This document shows, piece after piece, positions 13,239 to 60,438 of a stretch of DNA of 64,000 nt; position 1 is the stretch's first letter, and the number at the start of each line of letters is the position of its first letter. This stretch comes from Nonomuraea rubra (GTDB lineage Bacteria; Actinomycetota; Actinomycetes; Streptosporangiales; Streptosporangiaceae). The stretch is from contig NZ_JACHMI010000001.1 in NCBI RefSeq assembly GCF_014207985.1, forward strand, positions 4,385,001-4,449,000. Direction: 5' to 3'. The translations under genes and the position numbers were made by a program. Under the pieces are notes generated by a model. It was not told where the DNA came from, ran no database searches, and saw only the letters and a list, made by a program, of their open reading frames with translations.

Positions 13239-13274
13239 ACCCCGATCTGGTATGAAAGTTTCACCCAGGGGGCG

Positions 13275-13296: not shown

Positions 13297-13357
13297 TCGG
13301 TGTTGCGGTACTGGCCCTGGCCGGTGCGGCCAGGGCCCCGGTTCGAACAGGGTGCGG

Positions 13358-15004: not shown

Positions 15005-15050
15005 GTACGTCCTCGGTCCAGGTGCGATCTGTCTGCCAGGGCAGTCAAGG

Positions 15051-15071
15051 GCCCGCCGATGAACGGCGGGC
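15051..15071. terminator. hairpin downstream of UPF0104 gene
   Basis: GCCCGCCG (15051-15058) and CGGCGGGC (15064-15071) form a perfect 8-bp stem with a 5-base ATGAA loop. It lies 38 bases past the stop of the UPF0104 gene and upstream of the phosphodiester glycosidase, so it probably ends the glycan-locus transcript on the minus strand. Confidence 0.6.
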
Positions 15072-15108
15072 GCTGCCCGCGAAGCACCCAGGTGAACAGC
15101 GTCGGAGA

Positions 15109-17240: not shown

Positions 17241-17268
17241 GTCCGTTTCCCTTCATCCGTGGGGCCGG

Positions 17269-18465: not shown

Positions 18466-18487
18466 GGTGCCGAACGTACCGAGCGGT

Positions 18488-18536
18488 CCTTGTCCCGTTC
18501 TTGTCGCGGGACGCGCCCGACAAGAAGGGGACAAGG
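18488..18536. promoter_or_regulatory. large inverted repeat of 11-bp-spaced TTGTC units (candidate SARP site)
   Basis: Arm 1 at 18488-18506 is CCTTGTCCCGTTCTTGTCG. Arm 2 at 18518-18536 is its reverse complement with one mismatch in 19 positions, around an 11-base spacer. Each arm holds two TTGTC units exactly 11 bp apart, the period of SARP/OmpR-type direct repeats. It sits between the divergent VanJ-like gene (start 18465) and glycosyltransferase (start 18594). Two SARP-type regulators are encoded in the same locus. Binding is inferred, not shown. Confidence 0.65.
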
Positions 18537-18593
18537 CGCCGTGCCTAGCGTGAACCGGACATGAGGTCTGACCCGGCCAATGGAGCGCACATC

Positions 18594-19610: not shown

Positions 19611-19616
19611 GCGGCC

Positions 19617-21319: not shown

Positions 21320-21322
21320 GCG

Positions 21323-24292: not shown

Positions 24293-24300
24293 CGCCTTCC

Positions 24301-24345
24301 TCTCACCATCGATCTCACGAGCGTTCTCACGGGCGGCATTCTCAC
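24301..24345 (-). repeat. four GTGAGA direct repeats before the SARP gene
   Basis: On the plus strand TCTCAC occurs at 24301, 24313, 24325 and 24340 (spacing 12, 12, 15). On the coding strand this reads as GTGAGA units from the UbiA stop to the SARP ribosome-binding site; the last one forms GTGAGAGGAAGG. Two more GTGAGA copies 10 bp apart lie upstream of the aminotransferase (27832 and 27842), on the plus strand. It may be slippage or a binding array. Confidence 0.5.
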
Positions 24346-25298: not shown

Positions 25299-25314
25299 GC
25301 TTCACCCCGATAGC

Positions 25315-26361
25315 TCAGAAGAAGACCTTCGCCAGGGACAGCGCGCCCTGCCGCCACGCGTCACGGCTCGTCGCCCCGCCGCTCGAACCCGCGGGCGCGC
25401 CGGCCGCCCGCTGTTCCCGCCACCACGCGTACGTGCGCAGGATCGCGTCCCGGTTGGACAGCCGCGGGCGGAAGCCGAGCCGTTCACGGGCCTTGTCGAT
25501 GCTGACGTAGGAGTCGGCGAGCAGCTTGCGCGCCAGCCGCCCGTACACGGGGGACAGCCTGCTGCGCTCCAGCAGCCGGAGCCCGGCCACAGCCGGACCG
25601 GCGGGCAGCGGGACGACCCGCTTGCCGTGGCCGGCCGCGTCGAGCACCGCCTGGAAGTCCTCGCGCAGCGTGCCGAACTCGGCGGCGGCCAGGTTGTAGG
25701 TGTCACAGGCGACGCCGGCCGGCGCGTCGAGCACGAGGGCCACCGCGTCCACCAGGTCCTCGATCGCGAACATCTGGATGCGCTTGTCCCCGCGGCCGAG
25801 CACCGGGAAGTTGCGGCCCTCCTCGGCCCACTCGAAGAGCATCGCGAACAGGCCCATCCGGCCGGGCCCGAGGAAGGTCTTGGGGCGAAGGACGGGCACG
25901 CACATGCCGCCGGCCCGGTACCTCTCCGCCAGCTCCTCCGCCTCGGCCTTCGCCCTGGTGTAAGGGTCGACCGGCGCGCGCGGATGGTCCTCGGGGGTGG
26001 GCACCAGCGACGGCAGCCCGTACACGGCGGTGGAGGAGATGTGCACCAGCCGCTCCACGCCGGCCCGCCGCCCGGCCTCCAGGACCGTGCCGGTGCCCGT
26101 GACGATCAGGTCGTGGATCTGCTCGGCCGGGTAGCTCGGCAGCGCGCCCGCGCAGTGCACCACCGCGTCCGCCCCGGCCATGGCCTCGGTCATCAGCGGC
26201 AGGTCGCGCACGTCGCCGGTCCGGTGACCCGCCGCCAGCAGCGGGTCGGGCTGGGGACGCACGTCCACCCCGAGCACGTCGTGGCCGTCGAGCACGAGCC
26301 GGCGGGCCAGGTGGCCGCCGAGCATCCCGGCGCTGCCGGTGACTACGACCCGGCGGGCCAT
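25315..26361 (-). CDS. NAD-dependent epimerase/dehydratase (extended SDR)
   Basis: ATG 26361 gives 348 residues. It begins with the extended-SDR Rossmann motif VVVTGSAGMLGGHLARRL (TGxxGxxG), followed by the acidic VLGVDVRP, the HCAG segment and ISSTAVYG. The catalytic YxxxK is DPYTRAKAEAEEL near residue 145, and PKTFLGPGRMG follows. It acts on a nucleotide- or lipid-linked sugar, or possibly a sterol-like alcohol, since the family is broad. The gene overlaps the aminotransferase gene by 19 bp and is 16 bases before the UbiA gene, so aminotransferase, epimerase and UbiA form one operon. A role in modifying a polyprenyl-linked pentose is inferred from this. Confidence 0.82.
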   Translation of the reverse strand: MARRVVVTGSAGMLGGHLARRLVLDGHDVLGVDVRPQPDPLLAAGHRTGDVRDLPLMTEAMAGADAVVHCAGALPSYPAEQIHDLIVTGTGTVLEAGRRAGVERLVHISSTAVYGLPSLVPTPEDHPRAPVDPYTRAKAEAEELAERYRAGGMCVPVLRPKTFLGPGRMGLFAMLFEWAEEGRNFPVLGRGDKRIQMFAIEDLVDAVALVLDAPAGVACDTYNLAAAEFGTLREDFQAVLDAAGHGKRVVPLPAGPAVAGLRLLERSRLSPVYGRLARKLLADSYVSIDKARERLGFRPRLSNRDAILRTYAWWREQRAAGAPAGSSGGATSRDAWRQGALSLAKVFF

Positions 26362-27776
26362 CGCGACCCCACCTTCTCCCGCACGAACCCGGCGAGCAGC
26401 CGCGGCAGCCCCTTGGCCAGCGTCCTGTCGAGGCTGTCCAGGAAGTACTCGACGTCCTCCGGCTCGATGGCCAGGGTCGGCGCGACGACGAGGGGATTGT
26501 CGGCGTTCGGGCTGTAGTAGGAGACGATGCCGTGCTCGCGGTAGAGGTCGGCGATGACCGAGAGCGCGATCAGCTTGGTGCGGAACTGCGGGTCGCCGGA
26601 GAAGCCGGGCGCGAGCCTGGCGGCCAGGTCGAGCACCTTGGGCCCGCCGCTGAGGAACACGCCCCACAGCGCGCCCACCCCGCTCACCCGGCCGACCACG
26701 TCGGGGTGGCGCTTGTGGATGTTCTGCAGGCCGGGGCCCAGGATGCGCTCGATCTGGCGTGCTCTGGCGGGGTAGTCGTCCTCGACGACGATGTTGACGG
26801 CCTCGATGGCGGTGGCGGTCTCCTCGCCGAAGCCGTAGTAGGTGGTGCTGTGCAGGATGACGTCCGACAGCCGGTCGTACGCCTTGCGGAAGACCCGCTC
26901 GCGGGCGGTGTACCCGGCGATCGACGCCTTGCCGCCGCCGAGGGACTTGGAGTAGACGAGGATGTCGGGCAGCAGGTCGGGGTAGCGCATGAAGTAGAAG
27001 AGGCTGCCTGTCTTGCCCCAGCCCGTGTAGACCTCGTCGAAGATCAGCATGATGTCGTTGGCGTCGCAGAGCCGCCGCAGCTCGTACAGGTCGCTCTCCG
27101 CCCAGCAGCGCATGCTCGACGCGCTGAACGGCTCCGCCATGATCGCGTAGACGTCGCAGCCGCCGTCCGGAGTGCGGGCCGCCTCGACGGCCGCGCGGAC
27201 GGCCTCGAGGTCGCCGTACGGGTGGACGACGATGCCGGGCAGGCCGGGGAAGCGGAAGGAGTTCTCCGACGACCCGGTCAGGCTGCCGGCGCCCAGGGTC
27301 TTGCCGTGGAAGCTGATGTCGGAGCGGAGGATGGTGTTGCGGCGCCCTCCGTGGTACTTGTACGCCATCTTGACGGCGCCCTCGTTCGCCTCGGCGCCGG
27401 AGTTCGGGAAGTAGGAGATGTTCAGGTCGCCCGGCAGCAGCTCGGCGATGTTGTGGCTGAGCGCGGCCACGTACGGCGAGAAGAACGCCTTGTGCACCTC
27501 CATGCGCCGGCGGTCGGCGAAGCGGCGCCGGGCCTCCAGGATGCGGGGGTGGTTGTGGCCGTGGTTCAGTACGCCCACCCCGCCCGTGACGTCAAGGACC
27601 TCCCGGCCGCCGCGGGTCCTGATCCGGGCGCCCTCGGCGCTCTCGACGAGTTCCCGGCCGAAGCCGAAGGAGGTCATGAGGTTGACCTGGCTGCGGCTGA
27701 CGTACTTTCTGTACAAGTCCTGGACCTGTTTCACGGTGAAACTTTCACACTCGTCCACGCCGATGAGTTCAGACAC
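26343..27776 (-). CDS. class III PLP-dependent aminotransferase
   Basis: The product is 477 residues. Class III features: the cofactor-binding SGAEANEGAVKMAYKYH, IFDEVYTGWGKTG with the Asp that contacts the pyridine nitrogen, and the Schiff-base lysine (Lys277) in VYSKSLGGGKASIAGY. The N-terminal 35 residues (ESFTVKQVQDLYRKYVSRSQ) extend beyond acetylornithine aminotransferases. It is the first gene of the aminotransferase, epimerase, UbiA, SARP run, with a 242-bp upstream region. It probably puts an amino group on a sugar or lipid precursor of the locus product, for example as HpnO does for ribosyl-hopane, although no hopanoid genes are seen here. Confidence 0.85.
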   Translation of the reverse strand: MSELIGVDECESFTVKQVQDLYRKYVSRSQVNLMTSFGFGRELVESAEGARIRTRGGREVLDVTGGVGVLNHGHNHPRILEARRRFADRRRMEVHKAFFSPYVAALSHNIAELLPGDLNISYFPNSGAEANEGAVKMAYKYHGGRRNTILRSDISFHGKTLGAGSLTGSSENSFRFPGLPGIVVHPYGDLEAVRAAVEAARTPDGGCDVYAIMAEPFSASSMRCWAESDLYELRRLCDANDIMLIFDEVYTGWGKTGSLFYFMRYPDLLPDILVYSKSLGGGKASIAGYTARERVFRKAYDRLSDVILHSTTYYGFGEETATAIEAVNIVVEDDYPARARQIERILGPGLQNIHKRHPDVVGRVSGVGALWGVFLSGGPKVLDLAARLAPGFSGDPQFRTKLIALSVIADLYREHGIVSYYSPNADNPLVVAPTLAIEPEDVEYFLDSLDRTLAKGLPRLLAGFVREKVGSRWPAGS

Positions 27777-27940
27777 GTCCGCCCTTCCCGGTTCGCGCGA
27801 ATTCCGCTGGTGCCCGGCCTTCTTCTCGGCGGTGAGAAAAGGTGAGACCCGGCGTCAACAATGTCGAAACCGGCTATGCCCCGTGCCATACAAATGTGTG
27901 TAGGTCTGCGGCGGGCGCGGGAGCGTGCCGGAGAATAACC

Positions 27941-27973
27941 GGCCGGGAGCGGATCACCGGGTATTTCCCGGCC
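27941..27973. terminator. candidate terminator downstream of AfsR-type gene
   Basis: GGCCGGGA (27941-27948) and TCCCGGCC (27966-27973) form an 8-bp inverted repeat, with a smaller nested CCGGG-TATTT-CCCGG. It is 46 bases beyond the stop of the AfsR-type regulator on the minus strand. The 27777-28018 gap otherwise holds the aminotransferase promoter region, which is visibly less GC-rich than its surroundings. Confidence 0.45.
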
Positions 27974-28018
27974 AGATCTCGCGGTGATAACGGATGATTT
28001 CCCGGGAGCAGGCCGGCG

Positions 28019-29899
28019 TCAGCCCCTGACCGTCATATAGGTGACCGGCTGGACGGACGGAGGAGGAAGCAGCGTGCGGCCCTCTGGCCGGGCCCGGCGG
28101 GCGGCCTGCGCCTGGTCCTCCTCGGTGTCCTCCTCCCTGGCCCGCTCGCGGGCGAACAGGCAGAGCAGGTCGTGCATGCGGTAGCGCTCGTGGCCGCACG
28201 ACTCCAGCAACTGGGCTTCCACGAGGTGGTCCAGCAGGTCCGCGGTGCGCGGCTCTGGCCGGTCGGCCAGGGCGGCGGCGGCCGCGACGCTGATGGCGCC
28301 GCCGCCGAGCAGGCTCAGCAGCCGGAACAGCCGGGACGACTCGGCGTCCAGGCTCCGGTAGCTCATCATGAAGTACGCCCGTACGGCCTGGTCGTCGGCC
28401 TGCAGCTCGGACAGGCGGTGGTCCTCGACCGCCAGCCGGTCGGCCAGGGCGCGCAGCGACAGCCCCGGCCGGGCGATCAGCCGGGCGGCGGCGATCCTGA
28501 TCGCCAGCGGCAGCCCGGCGCACAGCCGCACGATCGCCCGCGCCGCCCGCTGCTCGGCGGCCACACGCTCCTCCCCGATCAGGCGGCCGAGCAGCGTGGC
28601 GGTCTCGTCCTCGGCCATGACGCCGAGGCGAAAGTGCGACGCGGCGTCCAGGGAGGTGAGCATCCGGCGCGCCGTGACCAGCACGCGGCAGGTGGGGCTC
28701 GCGGGCAGCAGCGGGCGCACCTGCGCGGCGTCGCGGGCGTTGTCGAGCAGGAGCAGCAGGTGCCTGCCGTCGGTCAGCGAACGGAAGCGGGCCGCGGCCT
28801 CGTCCACGTCGAACCGCCCGCCGGATCCCGCGACCGTGCCGTCGCCGAGCGAGCGCAGCAGCCGGGCCAGCACGTCGGCCGGGTTCAGCGGCGCGACGCC
28901 GGGGGTGGAGCCGTGCAGGTCCACGTACAGCCGGCCGTCCGGGAAGTGGCCCGCGACCTGGTGGGCGACGTGCACGGCCAGCGCCGACTTGCCGACCCCC
29001 GCGGCGCCCGTGATCGCCGAGATGGCGGTCGTGCCGGAGCCGGTGATCAGCATCGTACGCAGGCGGGAGATCTCGGTGGTCCGGCCGGTGAAGGCGGCCG
29101 AGCCGATGGGCAGCTCGGCCGGGGTCCTGCGGGCCGCGACCACCGGCGGCGGCGTCAGCGCGGGGTCGTCGGCGAGGATGCGCTGGTGCATCCGGACCAG
29201 GTCGGGGCCGGGGTCGATGCCGATCTCCGCGGCCAGCGTCATCCGCGCGCTCTGATAGACGGTCAGCGCGTCGGCCCTGCGGCCGCACCGGTACAGGGCC
29301 AGCATGAGCTGGGCCCTGAGCCGCTCGTTCAGCGGATCCCTGCGGGTCAGTGCCTCCAGGTCGGCGAGCACCTCGCCGTGCAGGCCGAGCGCCAGCCTGG
29401 CCTCCAGCGAGGCGTCCACGACGGTCGCCCGCAGCCGCTCCAGCCGCGCCGCCTCGCAGCGCAGCGTCGCCGGTAAGGGCAGCTCCTCCAGGACGGACTC
29501 GCCGCGCCACAGGCACAGGGCCCGGGTCAGCCGTTCGAGCGCGACGTCGTGGCGCCCGGCGGACAGCGCCAGCTGCCCCTGCGCGGCGAGGTCCTCGAAC
29601 AGCGTGACGTCGACCTCGCCCGGGGTGACGCGCAGCATGTACCCGTTGGAGCCCGCCTCGATGCGGGAGGGGGAGCCGAGCACCTTGCGCAGCGCTGAGA
29701 TGTAGGTGTAGAGGTTCGACTCCGCGGTGGCCGGGGCGCGCTCGCCCCACAGCCAGTCGAGCATGCGCCGGCTGGGGATCGCCTTTCCCGTGTTGAGCAG
29801 CAGGGCGGCCAGCAGCACGCGCTGTTTTCGGCGGCCGAGCGCGATAGGTCTCCCGAGAGAGGTTCGAACCTCGATCGGACCGAGGATCTTGAAATCCAT
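28019..29899 (-). CDS. AfsR-type SARP regulator with NB-ARC ATPase domain
   Basis: ATG 29899 (MDFKILGPIEVRTS) gives 626 residues. The winged helix is at 1-95 (LDWLWGERAPATAESNLYTY), the BTAD activation domain at 96-245 (LRAQLMLALYRCGRRADAL, IGIDPGPDLVRMHQRIL), and the NB-ARC ATPase from about 265. The ATPase has FTGRTTEISRLR, Walker A GAAGVGKSALAVH, the Walker B-like LLLLLDNARD and GLPLAIRIAAARL. No TPR block follows, so it is shorter than full AfsR (about 1000 residues). It is upstream of the aminotransferase operon on the same strand and is the second SARP-type regulator of the glycan locus. Confidence 0.9.
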   Translation of the reverse strand: MDFKILGPIEVRTSLGRPIALGRRKQRVLLAALLLNTGKAIPSRRMLDWLWGERAPATAESNLYTYISALRKVLGSPSRIEAGSNGYMLRVTPGEVDVTLFEDLAAQGQLALSAGRHDVALERLTRALCLWRGESVLEELPLPATLRCEAARLERLRATVVDASLEARLALGLHGEVLADLEALTRRDPLNERLRAQLMLALYRCGRRADALTVYQSARMTLAAEIGIDPGPDLVRMHQRILADDPALTPPPVVAARRTPAELPIGSAAFTGRTTEISRLRTMLITGSGTTAISAITGAAGVGKSALAVHVAHQVAGHFPDGRLYVDLHGSTPGVAPLNPADVLARLLRSLGDGTVAGSGGRFDVDEAAARFRSLTDGRHLLLLLDNARDAAQVRPLLPASPTCRVLVTARRMLTSLDAASHFRLGVMAEDETATLLGRLIGEERVAAEQRAARAIVRLCAGLPLAIRIAAARLIARPGLSLRALADRLAVEDHRLSELQADDQAVRAYFMMSYRSLDAESSRLFRLLSLLGGGAISVAAAAALADRPEPRTADLLDHLVEAQLLESCGHERYRMHDLLCLFARERAREEDTEEDQAQAARRARPEGRTLLPPPSVQPVTYMTVRG

Positions 29900-30250
29900 A
29901 TGACCACCCTGCAGCGCGCGGCTTTTCCCCGACAGGACCGTACGATTGCACACGGATCTTGATTTGCCGCGACCAATGATCGGCGGAAGCGACCTTGGAA
30001 CGGTACTTCCTGGAACGGCATAAGAAGATTACGCGTCCGGAAAATCCGGCCGGCGGTTCCCGGGCTGTTGAAATTTATTGCCGCATCGATATGCGGGGTG
30101 CGAGAAATTCGCCTTGACCGGTGCGGGCGCGTCCTTTCATCCACCCGGGCGGCACGCTGTCAAGATCACACATTCGTGCGATGTACGGTAGATCGTCACC
30201 CTGGCACGTGGGTCCCGATCGGCGGCACCCAGGAAGACGAAGGACGGACG
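29900..30250. promoter_or_regulatory. divergent intergenic region, AfsR-type gene / DUF2630 gene
   Basis: These 351 bases hold no gene that I can support. The stretch is noticeably AT-richer than its surroundings, as expected for two divergent promoters. Visible elements are TGGAACGG twice with 15-bp spacing (29996 and 30011) and the inverted repeat CCGCAT-CGAT-ATGCGG at 30081-30096. None can be tied to a regulator. Confidence 0.45.
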
Positions 30251-49762: not shown

Positions 49763-49795
49763 TGTCACGAATCGGGGCGCTGTCCTGTCTCAGCG
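49763..49795 (+). promoter_or_regulatory. ECF-type promoter element A (for LtrA gene)
   Basis: TGTCAC at 49763-49768 and TGTCTCA at 49786-49792 are separated by 17 bases; GCTGTCCTGTCTCAGCG (49779-49795) recurs base for base at 60292-60308. The downstream start codon is 40 bases after the -10 element. Confidence 0.65.
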
Positions 49796-49831
49796 CCAGG
49801 ACCGCCTCACGCACGCGACAGGAGTGACAGC

Positions 49832-51067
49832 TTGCCACCAGCCACGATCCGCGTCCGCATCCGGATGCGGGCGCGTCCCATCGACGAGCCGAACCGCGTC
49901 GCCAGCCAGCTCGAGCTGCTGTTCGACCTCACGTTCGTGGTCGCGGTCGCGGCCGTCACCGCCCAGCTCGCCCACCAGATCGTCGACGGGCACGCGGCGG
50001 CCGGCATCATCCCGTTCCTCCAGGTCTTCTTCGCGATCTGGTGGGCGTGGATGAACTTCACCTGGTTCGCCTCGTCGTACGACACCGACGACGTCGCCTA
50101 CCGGGTGCTGACCATGGTGCAGATGGCCGGCGTGCTGGTGCTGGCGGCGGGCGTGCCGGCCGCGAGCGAGCACACCGACTACGGCTTCGTCACGCTGGGC
50201 TACGTCATCATGCGGATCGGGCTCGTCGCCCAGTGGCTGCGGGTCGCGTTCGAGGACCCGGCGCGCCGGCGTACCGCGCTGCGTTACGCGGGCGGCATCA
50301 CCGTCCTCACCGCGGGCTGGATGTACCACTCGTGGGTCGCGCCGCTGAGCATCGAGCTGCCGCTCTTCCTGCTCCTCGCGGCGCTGGAGCTGGCCGTGCC
50401 GCTGTGGGCGGAGCGGGCCGAGCCCACCACCTGGCACCCGCACCACATCGCCGAGCGTTACGGGCTGTTCACGATCATCCTGCTCGGGGAGAGCGTGCTC
50501 GCCGCGTCCAGGGGTGTCGCCAGGGCGCTCGAGGCGAGCGCGATCAGCAGCCCGTTCGTGATGATCGCCGTCTCCGGGCTCGTCGTGCTGTTCGCCCTGT
50601 GGTGGCTGTACTTCCTGGTGGAGGCCGGTGAAGGGCTCAGCGGGCGGCGAGATCGTTCCTACCGGTGGGGGTACGGCCACTACGGCATCTTCGCGGCCCT
50701 GGCCGCGCTCGGCGCCGGGCTGGAGGTCGCCGTCGAGCAGAGCGGGCACCACATCGCCGCCACCCCGCTCACCGTCGCCTACGCCGTCGCCATCCCCGTC
50801 GGGGTGTTCCTCCTGCTGCTCTGGATGGTGCACACGCCGATCGAGCCGGAGTCCGTCATCCATCCCGCCGTGATCTCGGGGTGCGCCGCCGTCGTCCTGG
50901 CGCTGCCGCTCGCCGTGCCGTGGATCGGCGTGCACGGGGTGGCCACGGCGATCGCGGTGACGTGCGTGCTGGCGGTCGCCGTCACGATCGCCTGGAGCTC
51001 CGGTCGCGAGGCGGCGCCGGGGGCCGGGGTCCGGCGGGTGCGGCTGCCGTTCAGGGCCGCTCCGTAG
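49832..51067 (+). CDS. low temperature requirement A (LtrA) family membrane protein
   Basis: TTG 49832 with GGAG 7 bases before gives 411 residues; ATG 49865 is an alternative. LtrA features: a conserved N-terminal RVASQLELLFDLTFVVAVAA, WWAWMNFTWFASSYDTDD near residue 65, HHIAERYGLFTIILLGESVL near residue 205, and about 11-12 membrane helices. The family was named from a Listeria cold-growth locus and its biochemical role is still unknown. A promoter of the TGTCAC/TGTCTCA ECF-type lies upstream. The next gene, the amino-acid permease, is 94 bases away. Confidence 0.88.
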   Translation: MPPATIRVRIRMRARPIDEPNRVASQLELLFDLTFVVAVAAVTAQLAHQIVDGHAAAGIIPFLQVFFAIWWAWMNFTWFASSYDTDDVAYRVLTMVQMAGVLVLAAGVPAASEHTDYGFVTLGYVIMRIGLVAQWLRVAFEDPARRRTALRYAGGITVLTAGWMYHSWVAPLSIELPLFLLLAALELAVPLWAERAEPTTWHPHHIAERYGLFTIILLGESVLAASRGVARALEASAISSPFVMIAVSGLVVLFALWWLYFLVEAGEGLSGRRDRSYRWGYGHYGIFAALAALGAGLEVAVEQSGHHIAATPLTVAYAVAIPVGVFLLLLWMVHTPIEPESVIHPAVISGCAAVVLALPLAVPWIGVHGVATAIAVTCVLAVAVTIAWSSGREAAPGAGVRRVRLPFRAAP

Positions 51068-51093
51068 GTCTTCGTACGGTCCCGGGCCTGCGC

Positions 51094-51123
51094 TGTCACG
51101 GACGCGGCGGCCGCCCGGTCCAA
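51094..51123 (+). promoter_or_regulatory. weaker ECF-type element D (before amino-acid permease)
   Basis: TGTCAC at 51094-51099 and GGTCCAA at 51117-51123, separated by 17 bases and 39 bases before the permease start. It lacks the GCTGTCC box seen in elements A-C. Confidence 0.35.
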
Positions 51124-51161
51124 GTGAGCGAAGTGATCCCCGTCCGCGACGAGAGAGGTGG

Positions 51162-52604
51162 ATGATGAGGGATTCCCGCGGCCGGACACCGGCCCCCTGG
51201 GCGGAGCCCCCAGACCGGGACACGGCCCCCGGCACACCGGAGGCGAGCAGCGCCCCGGCCCAGGCAGAACCCCTTGAAGCCGGTGCGGGGCGATTCGGGC
51301 TGGGGACGGCGTCGGCGCTGGTCGTCGGCTCCGTCATCGGGACCGGGGTGTTCGCGCTGCCGTCCGCCCTGGCCGTGTTCGGGCCGATCTCGCTGGTGGC
51401 GTTCGGGCTCGTCACGATCGGCGCGATCGCGCTGGCGCTGGCGTTCCGCGCTCTCGCGGAGCGGCTGCCCGGCGCCGGCGGCCCGTACGTCTACGCCCGC
51501 GAGGCGTTCGGCGAGTTCGCCGGCTTCCTCATCGCCTGGAGCTACTGGATCACCGCGTGGGCGGGGAACGCGGCGATCGTGGTGGCCTGGGTCGGCTACG
51601 TGGAGGTGTTCTGGAACACCGGGCACGAGGTGGGCTGGTCGATCGTCATCGCGCTGACGGGGCTGCTCCTGCCGGCGCTGGTCAACCTGATGGGGCTGCG
51701 GAGCTTCGCCGCGTTCCAGATCGTCGCGACGGTGCTGAAGTTCATCCCGCTGCTGTTCATGGCGACGATCGGCCTGCTGTTCGTCAACACGGCGAACTTC
51801 GGCGAGTTCAACGCCGGCGGCACCTCCTGGCTGGGCGCCATCAGCGCCGCGGGCGCCATCGCGCTGTTCAGCTACCTGGGCATCGAGACGGCGTCGGTCG
51901 CCGCGGCCAGGGTCCGCGACCCGAGGCGGAACGTCGGCCGGGCCACCGTGCTGGGCACCCTGGCCTGCGCCGCGGTCTACATCCTCGGCACCGTCACCGT
52001 CTTCGGCACCGTGCCGCACGCCGATCTCGTCGCCTCCACCGCGCCCTTCACCGACTCGGCCAACGCCATCTTCGGCGGCGAGTGGGCGGGGGCCACGGTC
52101 GCGGCGGCGGCCGTCGTGTCCGGCTTCGGGGCGCTGGTCGGCTGGACCCTGATCGTGGCCGAGATGCCGCGGGCGGCGGCGCGCGACGGGTTGTTCCCCG
52201 CCGCCTTCGCCCGGCAGACCAGGTCCGGGGTGCCCGCGTACGGCATCGTCGTGTCCACCCTGCTGGCCGCGGGCCTCACCGTCGTCAGCTACACCAGCTT
52301 CGAGCAGGTGTTCATCACCGTGGTGCTGCTGTCGGTGCTCACCTCGGTCGTGCCGTACCTGCTGGCCGCCGCGGCACAGCTGTACTGGCTGTGCACGGAG
52401 GGCAGGCGGCTGAAGGCCGGCCACCTGGTGCGCGACGTCACCGTCTCGGCGCTCGCGCTGGCGTTCGGGTTCTGGGCGCTGGCGGGCAGCGGCTACCAGG
52501 CCGTCTACTACGGCACGTTCTGCCTGCTGCTCGGCGTGCCCGTGTACGTGTGGGTGAAGGCCCGCCGCGGCGTCTACGGCCAGAGCCCGGCGGTGGCGCG
52601 ATGA
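51162..52604 (+). CDS. APC family amino-acid permease (arginine/ornithine antiporter-like)
   Basis: ATG 51162 (or 51165) after GAGAGAGGTGG gives 480 residues with 12 expected membrane helices. The APC signature is at helix 1: [20 protein letters not shown]. It also has [20 protein letters not shown] and the [20 protein letters not shown] segment on helix 6. The 40-residue N-terminal tail is Pro/Ala-rich. The stop overlaps the arcA start by ATGA, and the genes for the other deiminase pathway enzymes follow, so it most likely exchanges arginine for ornithine. Confidence 0.9.
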
Positions 52605-53857
52605 CCACGAGCCAGGACCTCACGCTGCGGGTCGGCATCCACTCCGAGATCGGCAGGCTGCGCGAGGTCGTCGTGCACCGGCCGGGGCTGGAGCTGGACC
52701 GGCTGACCCCGGACAACGCCGCCGAGCTGCTCTTCGACGACGTGCTGTGGGCGGACCGCGCCCGCCGCGAGCACGACGAGTTCGCCGAGGTGATGAGGAG
52801 CCACGGCGTACGGGTGCACCTGTTCGCCGAGCTCCTGGCGCAGGCGCTCGCGACGGACGCCGGCCGGAGCTTCGCCGTGGACCGCGTGTGCACCGACCAG
52901 CGGTTCGGCGCGGCCCTGGCCAGGGAGCTGCGCGCGCTGTTCCTCGACCTCGACCCGGCGCTGCTGGCCGGCTACCTGATCGGCGGGGTGGTGAAGTCGG
53001 ACCTCGGCCCGCTCGTCGGGCGCAGCGTGGCGTGGCAGAGCCTGGACGCCGACGACTTCGTGCTCACCCCGCTGCCCAACACGCTGTTCCAGCGGGACAA
53101 CGCGGCCTGGGTCGGGCGGGCCGTCGCCGTCAACCCGATGGCCAAGCCGGCCAGGAGCCGCGAGTCGATCAACACCAGGACCGTCTACCGGCACCACCCC
53201 CTGTTCGCCGGGGCGGGCTTCGAGATCGTCTACGGGGACGACGATCTCGACCACGCCCCGGCGACGCTGGAGGGCGGCGACATCCACGTCATCGGCGACG
53301 GCGTCGCCATGGTCGGGATGGGCGAGCGCACCACGCCGATGGGCATGGAGGCGCTGGCCAGGCGGCTCTTCGAGGGCGGTCACGCCCGCCGCGTCCTGGC
53401 CGTGGAGCTGCCCAAGGCCCGCTCCACGATGCACCTGGACACCGTGCTGACGATGGTCGACGTCGCCACCTTCGTCGCCTACCCCTACTTCGACCAGGCC
53501 GCCGCCCGCGTCTGGCTGCTCACCCCCGGCGGGGGCGTCCAGCAGCGGAAGGGGCTGGCCGCCGGCCTGAGCGAGGCGCTGGAGGACGACGGCGTCCGCA
53601 TCCTCACCGCGGCGGGCGACCGGCGCGAGGCCGAGCGGGAGCAGTGGAACGACGCCGACAACTTCCTGGCGATCGCCCCCGGAGTGGTGCTCGGCTACGA
53701 ACGGAACACCGCGACCAACGCCATGCTGCGCGAGCACGGCCTGGAGGTCATCCCGCTGGCCGGCAGCGAGCTGGGCCGCGGCCGAGGCGGCGCCCGCTGC
53801 ATGACCTGCCCGATCCTGCGTGACCCCGTCTCGCCCGCCCCGAAGGAACAGTCATGA
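52601..53857 (+). CDS. arcA: arginine deiminase
   Basis: The ATG overlaps the permease stop and gives 418 residues. It has [20 protein letters not shown] and the [10 protein letters not shown] and [20 protein letters not shown] blocks with the catalytic Asp, Glu and His. Cys400, in RCMTCPI near the C-terminus, is the nucleophile. It converts arginine to citrulline and ammonia, step one of the deiminase pathway. The gene is followed with a 4-bp overlap by the carbamoyltransferase. Confidence 0.95.
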
Positions 53858-54855
53858 CATTCCCGACCGCGCCCGGCTCGCTGCTCACCCCGACCGGCCT
53901 GGGCCGCAGGGGCTTCCTGGCGCTGCTCGACCTCGCCGCGGAGCTGAAGGAGGCCAAGCGGGCCCGGCGCGAACGACCCGTGCTGACCGGCCGCAACATC
54001 GCCCTGGTCTTCGAGAAGAACTCCACCCGAACCCGGTGCGCGTTCGAGGTGGCCGCCTACGACCAGGGCGCCCACGTCACCTACCTCGGCCCGACGGGGT
54101 CGCACCTGGGCAGGGAGGAGAGCGTCGCGGACACCGCACGGGTGCTGGGCGCGCTCTACGACGGGATCGAGTTCCGCGGGTTCGCCCAGGAGACCGTCGA
54201 GGAGCTGGCCCGGCACGCCGGCGTACCGGTCTGGAACGGGCTCACCGACGAGTGGCACCCGACCCAGATGCTCGCCGACGTGCTCACCATGCGGGAGCAC
54301 CGGCCCGGCGACGTCGAGGCGATCAGCTGCTGCTTCGTCGGCGACGGGCGCGGCAACATCGCCCGCTCGCTGCTGGCCACCGGGGCCATGCTCGGCATGG
54401 ACGTACGCATCGCCGCCCCCGCCGAGCTGCTGCCACCGGAGGCGCTGGTGAAGGAGGCCAGGCACGCGGCCCTGTCCAGCGGCGCCCGCGTGACGGTCAC
54501 CAGCGACCCGGCGGCGGCGCTCGACGGCGCCGACTTCGTCTACACCGACGTGTGGGTCAGCATGGGCGAGGCCGAGGCCGAGTGGGACCGGCGCGTCCCG
54601 CTGCTCACGCCCTACCGGGTCACGGCGGAGCTGATGGCCGCCACCGGCCGTCCCGGCACCCGCTTCCTGCACTGCCTCCCCGCGGTGCACGACACCACCA
54701 CCGAGCTGGGGCGGCGGATCCACCAGAACTACGGGCTCGCCGGGGCCGAGGTCACCAACGAGGTGTTCACCTCCGCCGCCTCCGTGGTCTTCCAGCAGGC
54801 GGAGAACCGGATGCACACCATCAAGGCCCTGCTCGTCACGGCGCTGGGGGAGTGA
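53854..54855 (+). CDS. arcB: ornithine carbamoyltransferase (catabolic type)
   Basis: The ATG overlaps the arcA stop and gives 333 residues. Carbamoyl-phosphate binding appears as [17 protein letters not shown], ornithine binding as [15 protein letters not shown], and the active-site loop as [16 protein letters not shown]. It phosphorolyses citrulline to ornithine and carbamoyl phosphate in this pathway. Operon position, directly between arginine deiminase and carbamate kinase, supports the catabolic role over biosynthesis. It ends just before the carbamate kinase start. Confidence 0.93.
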
Positions 54856-54856
54856 G

Positions 54857-55810
54857 ATGCTGATCGTCGTCGCCCTGGGCGGCAACGCTCTGCTCGAACG
54901 CGGGGAACGCCCGGACGCGCAGGTGCAGCGGGAGCACGTCCGGGCCGCCGCCCTGGCCCTGGCCCCGCTCGCCGCCGAGCACACGCTGGTGCTCTGCCAC
55001 GGCAACGGGCCGCAGATCGGCATGCTGGCCGTGGAGAGCGAGAACGACCCGGCGCTGACCCACCCGTTCCCGCTCGACACGCTCGGCGCCCAGACCCAGG
55101 GCATGATCGGGTACTGGCTGGCGCTGGAGCTGGGCAACGCGGGCCTGGCCGGGCCGGTCGTCACGATCGTCACGCGGACCGAGGTCGACCCGGACGATCC
55201 GGCCTTCCGTGCCCCGGCCAAGTTCGTCGGCCAGACGTACCCGGAGCCGGTGGCCCGCAGGCTCGCCGGGGAGCACGGGTGGACCGTCGCCGGGGACGGG
55301 CAGGGCTGGCGGCGGGTCGTCGCCTCCCCGGCACCCCGCCGGATCGTCGAGCTGCCGACGATCCGGCACCTGGTGGCCGGCGGCACGACCGTGATCTGCG
55401 GCGGCGGGGGCGGGGTGCCCGTCTTCGCCGGGGACGGCGGCCGGTACGAGGGGGCGCAGGCCGTCGTCGACAAGGACCTCACGGCCGCGCTGCTGGCGGT
55501 GGAGCTGGGAGCCGACCGGCTCGTGGTGCTCACCGACGTGGACGCCGTACGCCGGGACTTCGGCACCCCCCGGGAGCGGCCGCTGTCCGCGGTGGACGCC
55601 GGCGAGCTGCGCGCCATGCGCTTCCCCGCCGGATCGATGGCGCCGAAGGTCGAGGCCTGCCTCCGGTTCGTCACCGCGACCGGCAGGCCGGCGGCGATCG
55701 GGGCGCTGCGGGACGCGGCCGCGGTGCTCGCCGGCACGGCCGGGACCACCATCACGGCCGGCACCAGGACCGTCACCAGCGCGGGAGCCGCCGTGGCAGC
55801 CGATCGGTAG
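54857..55810 (+). CDS. arcC: carbamate kinase
   Basis: The start is 1 base after the carbamoyltransferase stop; 317 residues. Amino-acid-kinase family motifs are IVVALGGNALLERGE at the N-terminus, LCHGNGPQIGMLAVESE, TQGMIGYWL, ICGGGGGVPVFAGDGG, VVDKDLTAALLAVELGADRL and MRFPAGSMAPKVEACLRFV. It makes ATP from carbamoyl phosphate and ADP, completing the deiminase pathway (permease, arcA, arcB, arcC). A hairpin follows directly. Confidence 0.94.
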   Translation: MLIVVALGGNALLERGERPDAQVQREHVRAAALALAPLAAEHTLVLCHGNGPQIGMLAVESENDPALTHPFPLDTLGAQTQGMIGYWLALELGNAGLAGPVVTIVTRTEVDPDDPAFRAPAKFVGQTYPEPVARRLAGEHGWTVAGDGQGWRRVVASPAPRRIVELPTIRHLVAGGTTVICGGGGGVPVFAGDGGRYEGAQAVVDKDLTAALLAVELGADRLVVLTDVDAVRRDFGTPRERPLSAVDAGELRAMRFPAGSMAPKVEACLRFVTATGRPAAIGALRDAAAVLAGTAGTTITAGTRTVTSAGAAVAADR

Positions 55811-55812
55811 AC

Positions 55813-55831
55813 CCGCTTACCTGCGAAGCGG
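55813..55831. terminator. hairpin after carbamate kinase gene
   Basis: CCGCTT (55813-55818) and AAGCGG (55826-55831) form a 6-bp stem with a 7-base loop, 2 bases after the arcC stop. It may attenuate or end the arc transcript before the LAL regulator gene. Confidence 0.4.
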
Positions 55832-55867
55832 TCCATGCCTCTACTCTCCTGTCGGGGTGGTGGAGCA

Positions 55868-58612
55868 ATGACGAGTGATGCGGCGGGGACGTTCGAGCTC
55901 CGTGATCGGCGCGTGGAGTGCGCGGTGCTGGACGGGGTGCTCGCCGACGTGCGCTCGGGTCCCGGGCGTGCCCTGCTGGTCCGCGGCGAGGCGGGCGTCG
56001 GGAAGTCGGCGCTGCTCGACTACCTCGTGGGCCGCTCGGCCGGCTGCAGGGTCGTGCGCGCGGCAGGCGTCGAGTCCGAGATGGAGCTGCCCTTCGCCGG
56101 CCTGCACCAGCTGTGCGCGCCGATGCTGGACCGCCTCGATCGCATCCCCGGCCCGCAGGCCGAGGCGCTGGCCGTCGCGTTCGGCCACAGCAGCGGCAGC
56201 CCGCCGGACAGGTTCCTGATCGGGGTGGCCGTCCTGAGCCTGCTGGCGGCGGCGTCGGAGGACCAGCCGCTCCTGTGCGTGATCGACGACGGGCAGTGGC
56301 TGGACCAGGCCTCGACGCAGACGCTGACGTTCGCCTCGCGCCGCCTGTTCGCCGAGCGGATCGGCGTGGTCTTCTCCGTACGGGAACCGGCGGCGGGCCC
56401 GGAGTGGCGGGGGCTGCCGGAGCTGGCGGTCGGCGGCCTGCCCGAGGACGACGCCCGCGCGCTGCTGGACTCGGCCGTTCCCGGGCGGCTGGACGAGCGG
56501 GTGCGCGACCGCATCGTGGCCGAGACGCGCGGCAACCCGCTGGCCCTGCTGGAGCTGCCGCGCGGGCTGACGGCGGCGGAGCTGGCCGGCGGGTTCGGGC
56601 GGCCCGACCTGCAGCCGCTGGCGAGCCAGATCGAGCTCAGCTTCGTCCGGCGGGTGCGGTCGCTGCCCGCGCCGACGCAGCGCCTGCTGCTGACGGCGGC
56701 GGCCGAGCCGGTCGGCGACATGACGTTGCTGCTGCGCGCGGCCCAGGCCATGGACCTGCCGATGAGCGCGGGAGCGCCGGCCGAGGCGGCCGGGCTGATC
56801 GAGCTGGGCTCCCGGGTACGCTTCCGGCACCCGCTCGTGCGTACGGCCATCTACCGGGCGGCGCCGCCCGGCGACCGCCGCGCCGTGCACCAGGCCCTCG
56901 CCCAGGCGATCGACCCCGCCGCCGACCCCGACCGGCGCGCCTGGCACCGGGCGCACGCGGCGGCCGATGCCGACGAGGAGGTCGCCGCCGAGCTGGTCAG
57001 CTCCGCCGACCGGGCGCAGCGGCGTGGCGGGGTCGCGGCCGTGGCCGAGTTCCTGCGGCGCGCCACCGAGCTGACCCCGGACGCGGAGACCCGCGCGATC
57101 CGCGCCCTGTCCGCCGCCGAGGCCGCGCTGCGCTGCGGCGCCTTCGACGTCGCCCTGAGGCTGCTGCACATGGCGGACCAGGCGGCGGCCGGCGAGTTCC
57201 ACCAGGCCCGGGTGACCCTGCTGCGGGCGCAGGTCGCCTTCGCCTCCGGCCACGACATGGCCGCGCCGCGGCTGCTCCTCGAAGCGGGCCGCCGGCTGGA
57301 GCCGCTGGACCTGGAGCTCGCCCGCGACACCTACCGCGACGCCATGGGCGCGGCCCTGCTCGCCGGCGCGTTCACCGAGGACTCCGGCGTGCGCGCGGTG
57401 GCGCTGGCGGTGCGCGCGGCGCCGGCGCCGGCCCCGCAGCGGCCCGGCGACCAGCTCCTGGACAGCCTCGCCGCGCTCTACACCGACGGTTACGCGGCCG
57501 CCGTGCCGCTGGCCCGGGAGGCGCTGCGGGCGTTCCGCGCGGAGGACAAGTCCAGCGCGAACGACCAGCCCTGGTTGTGGCTGGCCGGGATCACCGCCGC
57601 CGACATGTGGGACGACGAGAGCTGGGCCGTCCTCACCGAGCGGCACGTCCGGGTCGCCCGCGAGCTCGGCGATCTCAGCGTCCTCCCGCTCACCCTCAAC
57701 TCGCTCGCGGTCGTCCGGCTCCTCTCCGGCGAGCGCGCGGCGGCCGTCTCCCTGGTCGCGGAGATCCAGGCCATCGGCGAGGCGACCGGGGGAACGCTGG
57801 CGCCGTACGGCGCGCTGGTGCTGGCCGCCTGGCACGGCGACGAGGCCGCCGCCACCCCGCTGATCGAGGCGAGCACGGCCGACGCGATGGCCCGCGGCGA
57901 GGACAGCGGGGTCGTGGTCACCCACTGGGCGCGGGCGCTGCTGCTGAACGGGCTCGCCCGCTACGAGGAGGCCGCCACGGCGGCCCGCGCCGCGACCGAG
58001 CACCCGACGGAGTCCGGCGTCGTCTACTGGGCCCTGCCGGAGCTGGTCGAGGCGGCCGTCCGCAGCGGGCGGCCCGAGTGGGCGGCCGCCGCCTGCGAAC
58101 GCCTCGCCGCGACGGCCCGGGCCTCCGGGACCGACTGGGCGCTCGGCGTGCTGGCCAGGTCCGAGGCGCTGCTGGCGTCCGGCCGTACGGCGGAGGAGCT
58201 GTACCGGCAGGCGATCGACCACCTCGGCCGGACCAGGATCCGGACGGAGCTGGCCCGCGCCCACCTGCTGTACGGCGAGTGGCTGCGGCGGGAGAACCGC
58301 CTCAAGGAGGCGCGCGGCCGGCTCCGCACCGCCCACGACCTGCTCACCGAGGCCGGCGCCGCCGCGTTCGCCGGCCGGGCCCGCCAGGAGCTCGCCGCCG
58401 CCGGAGAGCCGGTCACCGAGCGGGCCGCCCGCCCGCGCGACACCCTCACCCCGCGGGAGGCGGACGTCGCCAGGCTCGCCGGCGACGGGCTGACCAACGC
58501 CGAGATCGGCGTCAGGCTCCTGCTCAGCCCGCACACCGTCGAATGGCACCTGAGCAAGGTCTTCACCAAGCTCGGCATCACCTCGCGCAGGCAGCTGCGC
58601 CCGAGGGACTAG
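55868..58612 (+). CDS. LAL-type LuxR family regulator with AAA ATPase
   Basis: ATG 55868 gives 914 residues. The N-terminal ATPase has ALLVRGEAGVGKSALLDYLV (Walker A near residue 55) and QPLLCVIDDGQWLDQASTQT (Walker B). A long helical repeat region follows (about 330-840), and a C-terminal LuxR helix-turn-helix closes it: LTPREADVARLAGDGLTNAE, then LSPHTVEWHLSKVFTKLGI. Such regulators control secondary metabolism, sugar use and stress. It is 57 bases downstream of arcC in the same direction, so it could be co-transcribed and may regulate the operon, although this is unproven. Confidence 0.9.
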   Translation: MTSDAAGTFELRDRRVECAVLDGVLADVRSGPGRALLVRGEAGVGKSALLDYLVGRSAGCRVVRAAGVESEMELPFAGLHQLCAPMLDRLDRIPGPQAEALAVAFGHSSGSPPDRFLIGVAVLSLLAAASEDQPLLCVIDDGQWLDQASTQTLTFASRRLFAERIGVVFSVREPAAGPEWRGLPELAVGGLPEDDARALLDSAVPGRLDERVRDRIVAETRGNPLALLELPRGLTAAELAGGFGRPDLQPLASQIELSFVRRVRSLPAPTQRLLLTAAAEPVGDMTLLLRAAQAMDLPMSAGAPAEAAGLIELGSRVRFRHPLVRTAIYRAAPPGDRRAVHQALAQAIDPAADPDRRAWHRAHAAADADEEVAAELVSSADRAQRRGGVAAVAEFLRRATELTPDAETRAIRALSAAEAALRCGAFDVALRLLHMADQAAAGEFHQARVTLLRAQVAFASGHDMAAPRLLLEAGRRLEPLDLELARDTYRDAMGAALLAGAFTEDSGVRAVALAVRAAPAPAPQRPGDQLLDSLAALYTDGYAAAVPLAREALRAFRAEDKSSANDQPWLWLAGITAADMWDDESWAVLTERHVRVARELGDLSVLPLTLNSLAVVRLLSGERAAAVSLVAEIQAIGEATGGTLAPYGALVLAAWHGDEAAATPLIEASTADAMARGEDSGVVVTHWARALLLNGLARYEEAATAARAATEHPTESGVVYWALPELVEAAVRSGRPEWAAAACERLAATARASGTDWALGVLARSEALLASGRTAEELYRQAIDHLGRTRIRTELARAHLLYGEWLRRENRLKEARGRLRTAHDLLTEAGAAAFAGRARQELAAAGEPVTERAARPRDTLTPREADVARLAGDGLTNAEIGVRLLLSPHTVEWHLSKVFTKLGITSRRQLRPRD

Positions 58613-58626
58613 GGGACCGCGGGAGC

Positions 58627-58660
58627 TGTCACAGAGCCCGAAGGCTGTCCGGTCTTAGCT
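58627..58660 (+). promoter_or_regulatory. ECF-type promoter element C (for ohr-like gene)
   Basis: TGTCAC (58627-58632) and GGTCTTA (58651-58657) are 18 bases apart, with GGCTGTCC between, as in elements A and B. The GTG start of the Ohr gene is 40 bases after the -10 element. Confidence 0.65.
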
Positions 58661-58696
58661 GGCGACCCGTCCCATGTGCCGTTGAAAGGCGTCCCA

Positions 58697-59182
58697 GTGA
58701 GCGAGCACACCCTGTCCACCGAGCACGACCACAGCGGCTCCGTGTTCAAACCGCTGTACGTCACCCGCGTCGCCGTGACCGGCGGTGACTCCGGCCACGC
58801 GCGCGCCAGCGGCCGGGCCCGCTCGGCCGACGGCGCGCTCGCCCTGGAGCTGCGCCTGCCCGAGGAGCTGGGCGGCGACAACCCCGGCCCGAACCCCGAG
58901 CAGCTCTTCGCCGCCGGATACGCCGCCTGCTTCCAGGGCGCGCTCAGCCTGCTGGCCAGGCAGCACCTCCTCGACCCCGGGGCGATCACGGTGGAGGCGA
59001 CCGTCACCTTCGGCCGCGACCCGGCCGACGGCGGCTACCAGCTACGCGCCGACCTCGTCGTGACCTGGCCGGGAGTGGACCGCGCCACGGCCACCCCGCT
59101 GCTGGCCCAGGCGACCGCGCTGTGCCCGTACGCCAAGATGGCCCGCCACGGCATCCCCGCCACGATCGCCCTCGCCGGCTGA
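58697..59182 (+). CDS. ohr: Ohr family organic hydroperoxide resistance protein
   Basis: GTG 58697 with GAAAGG upstream gives 161 residues. The OsmC/Ohr fold shows ALALELRLPEELGGDNPGPN, the catalytic cysteine in FAAGYAACFQGALSLLARQH and the second cysteine in ATALCPYAKMARHGIP. The enzyme reduces organic hydroperoxides, using lipoylated proteins or similar thiols in known members. No OhrR repressor gene is adjacent; the ECF-type promoter element suggests sigma-factor control in its place. Confidence 0.92.
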   Translation: MSEHTLSTEHDHSGSVFKPLYVTRVAVTGGDSGHARASGRARSADGALALELRLPEELGGDNPGPNPEQLFAAGYAACFQGALSLLARQHLLDPGAITVEATVTFGRDPADGGYQLRADLVVTWPGVDRATATPLLAQATALCPYAKMARHGIPATIALAG

Positions 59183-59200
59183 GACCGCCCCGCACGACGA

Positions 59201-59232
59201 GAGGGCACCGGCCCGTGACGGCCGGTGCCCTC
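59201..59232. terminator. strong bidirectional terminator hairpin
   Basis: GAGGGCACCGGCC (59201-59213) and its perfect complement GGCCGGTGCCCTC (59220-59232) form a 13-bp stem with a 6-base loop, between the convergent ohr-like gene and the secreted hydrolase gene. Confidence 0.85.
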
Positions 59233-59249
59233 GTCCACGTTCGGTCCCG

Positions 59250-60104
59250 CTACCGCACGCTCGCCCGCGCGGCCTGCTCGATCACGTGGGCGACGGTCCT
59301 GGGAGCCGTCATCAGGCCGACATGCCCGGCGTCGTACTCGACGACGGTGGAGCCGGCCCGCTCGGCCATGCTCCGCTGCACGCCGGGAGGGATGATCCGG
59401 TCCTTGGTGCCGATGACGTTCCAGGACGGGATCGTCCGCCAGGCGGGGGCGCCGGACGGCTCGTTGAGCGCGCCCAGCGTGGCCGGCCGCTGGGTGGCCG
59501 CCACGAGCGCCTTGTCATCGAGGCTCAGCCCGTTCGCGAACGACGTCAGGACGGTCGGCGTCTTCAGGTACAGGTCGGTCTCCGCGGTGGGCGGAAGGGC
59601 CGGGGGGACGAGGTCGAACACGGTCGTCGGGTCCGGCACGGAAAGGGCGGAGTCCGGTCCCGCGAGCTGGGTCGCGGACTCGCCGGCGTCGGGGGCGAAG
59701 GCGTTGACGTAGACGAGCGCCTTGACGCCGGGGGTTCCGGCGGCCGCGTTGGTGATCACGGCCCCGCCGTAGGAGTGGCCGACGAGGACGACCGGCCCCG
59801 TCAGCGTCTCCAGGAACGCCTTCACGGACGCGGCGTCGCCCGACAGCGAGCGCAGCGGGTTGGCGATCGCCCTGACCGGATAGCCGTCGGCCTGGAGCCT
59901 GGCGATGACCCGGTTCCAGCTGGAGGCGTCCGCCCAGGCTCCGTGCACGAGCACGACGGTGGGCTTCGGCGTACGCGACCGGCTGTCCTGGGCGGCGACG
60001 CTCAGCGCCGGGCCGGCGCCGCCCAGGATGAGGGCGGCGGCGGCGAGCAGCGCCACGGCGGTGCGGGTCCGGCGCAGGGTACGGCGGGCAGGGGGATTGA
60101 TCAT
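59250..60104 (-). CDS. secreted alpha/beta hydrolase (EstC-like)
   Basis: The product is 284 residues with a twin-Arg-containing but short signal (TLRRTRTAVALLAAAALILG, then SVAAQ). The fold shows VVLVHGAWADASSWNRVI for the oxyanion hole, the nucleophile LVGHSYGGAVITNA near residue 110, the acid in IGTKDRIIPPG and the base in AGHVGLM. This is the short esterase/methyl-esterase subgroup. Substrate unknown. It is transcribed away from the patatin operon. Confidence 0.85.
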   Translation of the reverse strand: MINPPARRTLRRTRTAVALLAAAALILGGAGPALSVAAQDSRSRTPKPTVVLVHGAWADASSWNRVIARLQADGYPVRAIANPLRSLSGDAASVKAFLETLTGPVVLVGHSYGGAVITNAAAGTPGVKALVYVNAFAPDAGESATQLAGPDSALSVPDPTTVFDLVPPALPPTAETDLYLKTPTVLTSFANGLSLDDKALVAATQRPATLGALNEPSGAPAWRTIPSWNVIGTKDRIIPPGVQRSMAERAGSTVVEYDAGHVGLMTAPRTVAHVIEQAARASVR

Positions 60105-60438
60105 GACTCTGTCCTGTTCCGTGTGAGAGAGGCGGCTCCGGCGGACGGGAGACTGGAGACGGTTCGCGCCGGAGCCGCGGCCGGGGCGCGTACCGCCCGG
60201 CTCGTGTGGGTTAGACCGGGCACCGGGCCCGCCGCGTGACGCCTCGCCCCCGACCGCGTGAAAGCCGCCGTGGCTGTCACGCGCGCGGGGGGCTGTCCTG
60301 TCTCAGCGGTGACACCTGTCCGATTCAGCGCGCTGGTGAGAAGGGCGGATCATGTGGGTGACACAACGCGGGAGACCGGCCTCCCCGGCCTGCCAGGGCC
60401 CACGGCCGGGAGTCGCCGGTCATGGAAGGCGTCAGGCC
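60105..60438. promoter_or_regulatory. 334-bp intergenic region upstream of patatin operon
   Basis: This gap holds ECF-type element B, a 9-bp imperfect inverted repeat GTGAAAGCC-GCCGT-GGCTGTCAC (60258-60280) that overlaps its -35, and no gene. An in-frame ATG at 60352 has a fair ribosome-binding site, but the 87 bases to 60439 use many codons ending in A or T, unlike the genes here, so I take it as leader. Confidence 0.55.
60275..60308 (+). promoter_or_regulatory. ECF-type promoter element B (for patatin operon)
   Basis: TGTCAC (60275-60280) and TGTCTCA (60299-60305) are 18 bases apart; GCTGTCCTGTCTCAGCG (60292-60308) is identical to element A. Confidence 0.65.

Follow-up and report, generated by a model that had tools for sequence, protein, structure and literature searches.

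The element and the genes behind it

The analysed stretch, called here the window, comprises 64,000 nucleotides of the Nonomuraea rubra genome (NCBI RefSeq assembly GCF_014207985.1, contig NZ_JACHMI010000001.1, positions 4,385,001 to 4,449,000). It contains four copies of a two-box element, TGTCAC followed after 17 or 18 bases by KGTC, which resembles the promoters of ECF41-type extracytoplasmic function (ECF) sigma factors. Each copy stands just ahead of a gene, so that several genes of this soil actinomycete linked to stress or the cell envelope have one rare promoter-like element in common. The features, in window coordinates and with ranks and scores from the promoter model R1 described below, are as follows.

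49763..49789, + strand: putative promoter A, -35 TGTCAC, N17, -10 TGTC, before LtrA; R1 rank 3 genome-wide, 32.4 bits
49832..51067, + strand: LtrA family membrane protein, TTG start (PF06772, 5e-93)
51094..51120, + strand: putative promoter E, TGTCAC-N17-GGTC, before the permease/arginine deiminase operon; R1 rank 5, 27.7 bits
51162..52604, + strand: basic amino acid permease, gene 1 of the arginine deiminase operon (PF13520 over cut-off; TIGR00905 2e-81, below cut-off)
52601..55810, + strand: three open reading frames taken to encode arginine deiminase, ornithine carbamoyltransferase and carbamate kinase, named by eye
55835..58612, + strand: LAL-type LuxR regulator (AAA_16 + GerE), separated from the carbamate kinase gene by 24 nt if the longest start is used
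58627..58654, + strand: putative promoter C, TGTCAC-N18-GGTC, before Ohr; R1 rank 1 genome-wide, 34.3 bits
58697..59182, + strand: Ohr family peroxiredoxin (TIGR03561, 118.6 bits, cut-off 88.85)
60275..60302, + strand: putative promoter B, TGTCAC-N18-TGTC, before the patatin operon; R1 rank 4, 28.4 bits
60352..63985, + strand: patatin operon with a patatin-like phospholipase (start at 60352 or 60439), an MGT-family glycosyltransferase and two proteins without a Pfam match

An earlier note, made from the letters of the window, had described three exact copies of TGTCACN{17,18}KGTCTYA. These are found at 49763, 58627 and 60275, all on the + strand, and the pattern matches nowhere else in the window; 100 shuffled versions of the window gave a mean of 0.01 matches and none contained three. 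Reading of the sequence likewise confirmed that copies A and B share 17 identical consecutive bases (GCTGTCCTGTCTCAGCG) and that the -10 element lies 40 bases from the start codon for both LtrA (TTG at 49832) and Ohr (GTG at 58697). The weaker fourth copy (51094, TGTCAC-N17-GGTCCAA, with the permease ATG at 51162) is genuine, as it fits the extended pattern given below and a counterpart precedes what appears, judged by the N-termini, to be the same permease in some related species. Base 7 of the element, which directly follows TGTCAC, is an A in C only and a G in the other three window sites.

Conservation extends to the other copies. The LtrA genes of related species are also preceded by the element, and the N-termini of these relatives back the upstream TTG start. 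A counterpart of promoter B was found ahead of the patatin gene in some relatives. The LAL gene was counted as the end of a motif-led unit, and a second LAL gene lies behind the patatin operon, outside the window. The complete-looking arginine deiminase operon (51162–55810, names by eye), with promoter E ahead and the LAL gene behind, is a side observation in an actinomycete.

Occurrence in the genome and in the genus

When the spacer of the TGTCAC/KGTCTYA pattern was widened to 15–20 bases, the 12.9-Mb genome contained four matches, all within 20 kb, and the reversed control none. Three of these are A, B and C; the fourth (4454751–4454781, - strand) lies just outside the window, 8 bases ahead of the ATG at which a P-type ATPase gene is called to start (TIGR01494 over cut-off; the highest-scoring model is that of a calcium ATPase but stays under its own cut-off). 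The extended pattern TGTCACN{9,13}GCYGYCCKGTC gave eight matches, again with an empty reversed control, and five of them, the four window sites and the ATPase site, lie within 20 kb. A chance origin of the copies is ruled out by the shuffles, the genome-wide rarity and these empty controls together.

Of 98 genomes searched with the extended pattern, 44 contain it, namely 42 of 54 Nonomuraea and 2 of 44 others; the reversed control matched three times, never in Nonomuraea. After removal of one identical copy (at locus L161) from 123 matches, 79 of the 122 distinct sites stand 30–89 nt upstream of a called gene. Enrichment ahead of genes, the lack of which the earlier note had named as refuting its reading, was thus checked and did not refute it. 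Recurrent target families, assigned from matches to family models or, for P450, by eye, are NmrA/short-chain dehydrogenase (SDR) oxidoreductases, LtrA, Abhydrolase_3, cupin, ferritin-like proteins and P450, and further patatin, the permease, the P-type ATPase, a protein resembling DUF5134 with a score below cut-off, and a sigma2–SnoaL protein followed by Ohr.

The last of these is a 238-aa protein with sigma2-like and SnoaL-like parts and no sigma4 (L096:11549–12265, + strand), encoded between motif and Ohr in genomes G010, G051 and G043. Twelve of 54 genomes have it at ≥66% identity (two copies with one internal stop, one split in two), and three other copies have 38–40% identity. In the window the motif and Ohr have no such gene between them, and none was found in this genome. 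A family of 76-aa proteins follows the motif at three loci (L100, L114 and L090); the L100 member, the only one scanned, has no Pfam match.

Model R1 was trained on 54 of 91 distinct sites from other genomes, near-copies having been removed by hand. The training set included sites from two genomes in which the sigma clade discussed below was not found (G008 and G009) and sites from close relatives; the test on the held-out N. rubra genome is not fully independent because orthologous promoters of these relatives are in the training set. Here 150 of 29,841 candidates were scored. Among these, the window sites rank 1, 3, 4 and 5, the ten best matches have E-values from 2.8e-7 to 0.021 and the eleventh stands at 0.054. 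In order, the ten are 58627, 6814641 (-), 49763, 60275, 51094, 6809088 (-), 4454746 (-), 7277470 (-), 6800279 and 6798961, the five-digit numbers being window and the seven-digit numbers genome coordinates. They fall in three places: the window cluster (five sites, 24.8–34.3 bits), a hub at 6.799–6.815 Mb (four sites) and 7.277 Mb (one site). The hub targets are an SDR, an Abhydrolase_3 operon, a P450 and a cupin. A COE-type (oxidoreductase/epimerase) target, classical for ECF41, is therefore present in the genome, outside the window: the SDR gene (L269:699–1487, - strand) behind site 6814641–6814680, named by its likeness to a protein at locus L089 that matches NAD_binding_10, NmrA and Epimerase. 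This site reads CGTCAC at -35 instead of TGTCAC.

Architecture of the putative promoters

Spacing was examined in 92 sites that lie outside genes and ≤260 nt ahead of a called gene, the eight sites of this genome being left out. With 16–20 bases allowed between TGTCAC and KGTC, 73 sites have 17 and 19 have 18. While TGTCAC itself is built into the search pattern, base 7 varies with the spacer, being A in 66 of 73 N17 sites and G in 14 of 19 N18 sites. The published ECF41 consensus, TGTCACA-n16±1-CGTC, is given by Wecke et al. 2012 (PMC3426412), where the two proven promoters have TGTT or CGTC at -10. Counted from TGTCACA, the spacer is 16 or 17 in 92/92 sites and so agrees with the ECF41 spacing.

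The -10 element is different. With the loose pattern TGTCAC-N13..21-NGTC at 89 loci, upstream sites peak at N17 (108 K, 0 C, 0 A), followed by N18 (36 K, 1 C, 0 A); KGTC thus accounts for 144 of 145 sites at the two spacings, about 100 of which are themselves part of the selection of these loci by the K motif. A lesser peak at N13 (12 T, 4 C) was attributed to the GCTGTC box four bases upstream and excluded from the count. The suggestion of the earlier note that the element is of the ECF41 type stands as to sequence, spacing, position before genes and, as shown below, co-occurrence with one ECF41 sigma clade, but with KGTC in place of CGTC it is a variant and not the consensus form.

The candidate sigma factor

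The earlier note had remarked that the window lacks an ECF sigma gene, and indeed none of the genome's 121 Sigma70_r2 matches lies there. A candidate is found 2.36 Mb away in the hub: a 221-aa sigma factor of the SigJ/SigX4 type (G000:C1:6809477–6810139), divergent to the motif-led Abhydrolase_3 operon. Its best model is TIGR02957 with 192 bits (full-length cut-off 323), and Sigma70_r2 and r4_2 score over cut-off. Judged from these sequences, the repeats are probably the promoters of a multi-operon ECF41-type regulon that is most likely read by this naturally truncated sigma factor.

This assignment is supported by co-occurrence. With membership set at E≤6.8e-50 and 55 candidates scored per genome, the sigma clade is present in 36 of 54 Nonomuraea genomes. 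R1, run here under stricter filters with 121 of ∼12,000–30,000 first-look candidates scored per genome, has matches at E≤3e-4 in 36/36 genomes with the clade sigma versus 3/18 without it (Fisher 9.4e-11, a value that overstates independence because the genomes are related). The exact pattern in promoter position gives 33/36 versus 3/18. LtrA relatives occur in seven of the 18 sigma-less genomes (three at 69–71% and four at 44–54% identity), and at none of these seven loci does R1 match at E≤1. A split of 89 loci into promoter-type and other (L166 and L167 left out, L161 counted as non-promoter owing to its removed copy) places a clade sigma within the fetched stretch at 38/68 promoter-type versus 3/21 other loci.

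Besides the relatedness of the genomes, several observations weigh against the assignment. At the remaining 30/68 promoter-type loci, the window cluster among them, the fetched stretch lacks a clade sigma, and three draft genomes (G008, G009 and G022, with ∼580, 70 and 80 contigs) carry motif-led genes with no clade sigma found among the 55 candidates scored. Other ECF41 sigmas among the 121 Sigma70_r2 matches could cross-recognize the sites. Autoregulation is not seen, as R1 finds no + strand site ahead of the sigma gene. The control for CGTC comprises few sites: eight in 8/20 loci of other ECF41 paralogues, all CGTC, with about two expected from background. R1 still matches paralogue loci weakly (best 15.8 bits, E 0.0018, compared with 24.8–34.3 bits in the window cluster). 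With such a control, the contrast between KGTC and CGTC suggests a change of -10 preference and does not prove it.

Loss of the SnoaL domain

Of 101 ECF41 sigma sequences, 99 were compared, leaving out L208, whose frame is broken, and L222, whose frame runs on; the sigma, linker and LAL counts that follow are raw counts over related genomes. Twenty-eight of the 99 end early, without the C-terminal NPxK-type motif. The linker motif WLP[ED]P is absent from all 28 short forms and present in all 71 full forms. A quick tree places 26 of the 28 on one branch (SH-aLRT 96), which spans Streptosporangiaceae, Kribbellaceae, Actinopolymorphaceae, Micromonosporaceae and Geodermatophilaceae. The SnoaL-less sigmas from an Acidobacteriota bin (L202) and from Actinomadura nitritigenes (L244) stand outside it and are perhaps separate losses. 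The short forms end 42–91 aa past the sigma4 core, 14 of 28 at 42–46 aa.

The 221-aa protein comprises sigma2, sigma4 and the initial ∼28 aa of the SnoaL extension, ending 42 aa past the core. Its linker reads WLPET, not WLPEP. Most of the ∼100-aa extension typical of ECF41 is missing together with its conserved motifs: there is no C-terminal NPxK-type motif in the 221-aa sigma and no DGGG in a close relative (L168). It is therefore better described as derived from ECF41 than as a typical member. In the sequence alignment with Mycobacterium tuberculosis SigJ (PDB entry 5xe7), residues 31–218 align to SigJ 12–203, and the protein ends at the equivalent of residue 203 of a 312-residue chain.

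A contact between the WLPEP linker motif and the C-terminal NPxK-type motif is described in PMC7730460. According to PMC3426412, the truncated Ecf41Bli 204 and Ecf41Rsp 206 are ∼20 and ∼120 times more active than the full-length proteins, and variants 167/169, without the extension, are inactive. By inference, the natural endpoint perhaps corresponds to those of the hyperactive laboratory truncations.

In the resulting model, RNA polymerase carrying an ECF41 (SigJ/SigX4-type) sigma would read -35 TGTCAC(A/G) and, 17 or 18 bases on, -10 KGTC with GCYGYCC directly ahead, and would start transcription a few bases past KGTC. The predicted leaders are ∼30–40 nt before LtrA, the permease and Ohr. 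The most likely reader in this genome, the 221-aa sigma (6809477–6810139), would by analogy with the truncations be active without relief of self-inhibition, and its control would consequently have to come from elsewhere.

LAL regulators at the loci

LAL regulators, found near many such loci, may provide this control. LAL genes (AAA_16 + GerE) lie within ∼8 kb of 16/27 short sigma genes versus 1/51 full-length ones; by genome, with short and full-only genomes sorted by hand, the counts are 11/15 versus 1/18. Their position and orientation vary among loci and no fixed arrangement is seen: the motif loci yielded 27 LAL genes or fragments (with some counted twice via adjoining stretches), of which seven end a motif-led unit, 12 do not and eight reach the edge of the stretch. 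The three that come from motif loci of this genome are among the seven. A takeover of sigma control by LAL proteins is a hypothesis.

Alternative explanations

The alternative that survives best, although we consider it rather unlikely, is that these ECF41-type promoters are read by another, full-length SnoaL-bearing ECF41 paralogue, the short sigma being a passenger or partial reader. Candidates exist, since the long query matches 11 sequences of this genome at E≤1e-45, one of them the short sigma. Full-length sigmas of the related branch in other species also have the element at their loci: among 80 named loci, R1 matches at E≤1e-4 at 22/51 full-length-sigma loci and at 16/27 short-sigma loci, so that many loci of both kinds have no R1 site nearby. 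On the other hand, the short query at E≤1e-45 picks out just the 221-aa sigma in the genome. Three loci of its own paralogues were examined and yielded a single R1 match of 7.4 bits (L267; none in L265 and L266), and paralogue loci, in a small set, have CGTC at -10.

It is very improbable that the repeat is an operator of the cluster's LAL/LuxR regulators rather than a sigma site. LAL genes do occur at 19/68 promoter-type loci, and two are in or beside the window cluster, but 49/68 such loci have none in the fetched stretch and full-length sigma loci carry the element at 22/51 and a LAL gene at 1/51; two boxes at a constant distance ahead of starts, with a match to the ECF41 -35, also fit a promoter. 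If promoter fragments had recently been duplicated inside the cluster and the genes were not regulated together, this would account for the 17 bases common to A and B and for the closeness of the sites, but such a history is hardly credible given that in many species the element precedes members of the same gene families, at unrelated positions and with spacers that have diverged, and that further sites of this genome are 2.4 and 2.8 Mb away.

Comparison with known systems

The multi-operon regulon proposed here and the ECF41 systems of PMC3426412 have in common the TGTCAC of the -35 (with base 7 A or G here), the 16±1 spacing, a GTC core at -10, a COE-type target and the SigJ/SigX4-type sigma core. 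They differ in the -10 (KGTC for CGTC) and in the sigma, which here lacks WLPEP and the greater part of the extension. That 2012 study concludes that a sigma generally has a single target gene or operon and reports no inducing condition, whereas here about ten sites are found in one genome. Like Ecf41Bli 204 and Ecf41Rsp 206 in that source, the Nonomuraea short sigma consists of sigma2–sigma4 plus a short start of the extension; unlike them it is a natural form, occurring in several Actinomycetota families, whose activity is a prediction. SigG1–RsfG of Streptomyces tsukubaensis (ECF56; PMC7730460) is similar as a SnoaL-type ECF without the NPDKL contact motif that is controlled by another protein. 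SigG1, however, retains SnoaL_2 and has an anti-sigma, whereas the Nonomuraea sigma has lost the domain and has LAL genes in its neighbourhood.

The literature searched, which was mostly that available without subscription, names neither a natural SnoaL-less ECF41 clade nor this regulon. RpoE10 of Azospirillum brasilense is reportedly, by the title of a paper, an ECF41 sigma affecting motility and lateral flagella, beyond one COE gene, so that broader roles would not be without precedent.

Implications

Peroxide or membrane-lipid stress, proposed by the earlier note as the signal, is a guess, as the list of target genes does not name one signal. How the regulon arose can be pictured tentatively, and in a form that we regard as possible rather than likely: an old ECF41 branch may have lost its fused SnoaL sensor, and with it the linker motif that the sensor contacts, and become active by default, LAL ATPase regulators may have taken over its control, and a one-target circuit may have expanded until it covered about ten operons, its -10 changing to KGTC.

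ECF41 sigma factors are widespread. The loci described here provide a candidate multi-operon ECF41 regulon with named promoters, together with naturally occurring proteins that are perhaps similar to the hyperactive truncations made in the laboratory. Because long and short sigma factors both exist in nature, comparing them at identical promoters makes the role of the fused domain testable.

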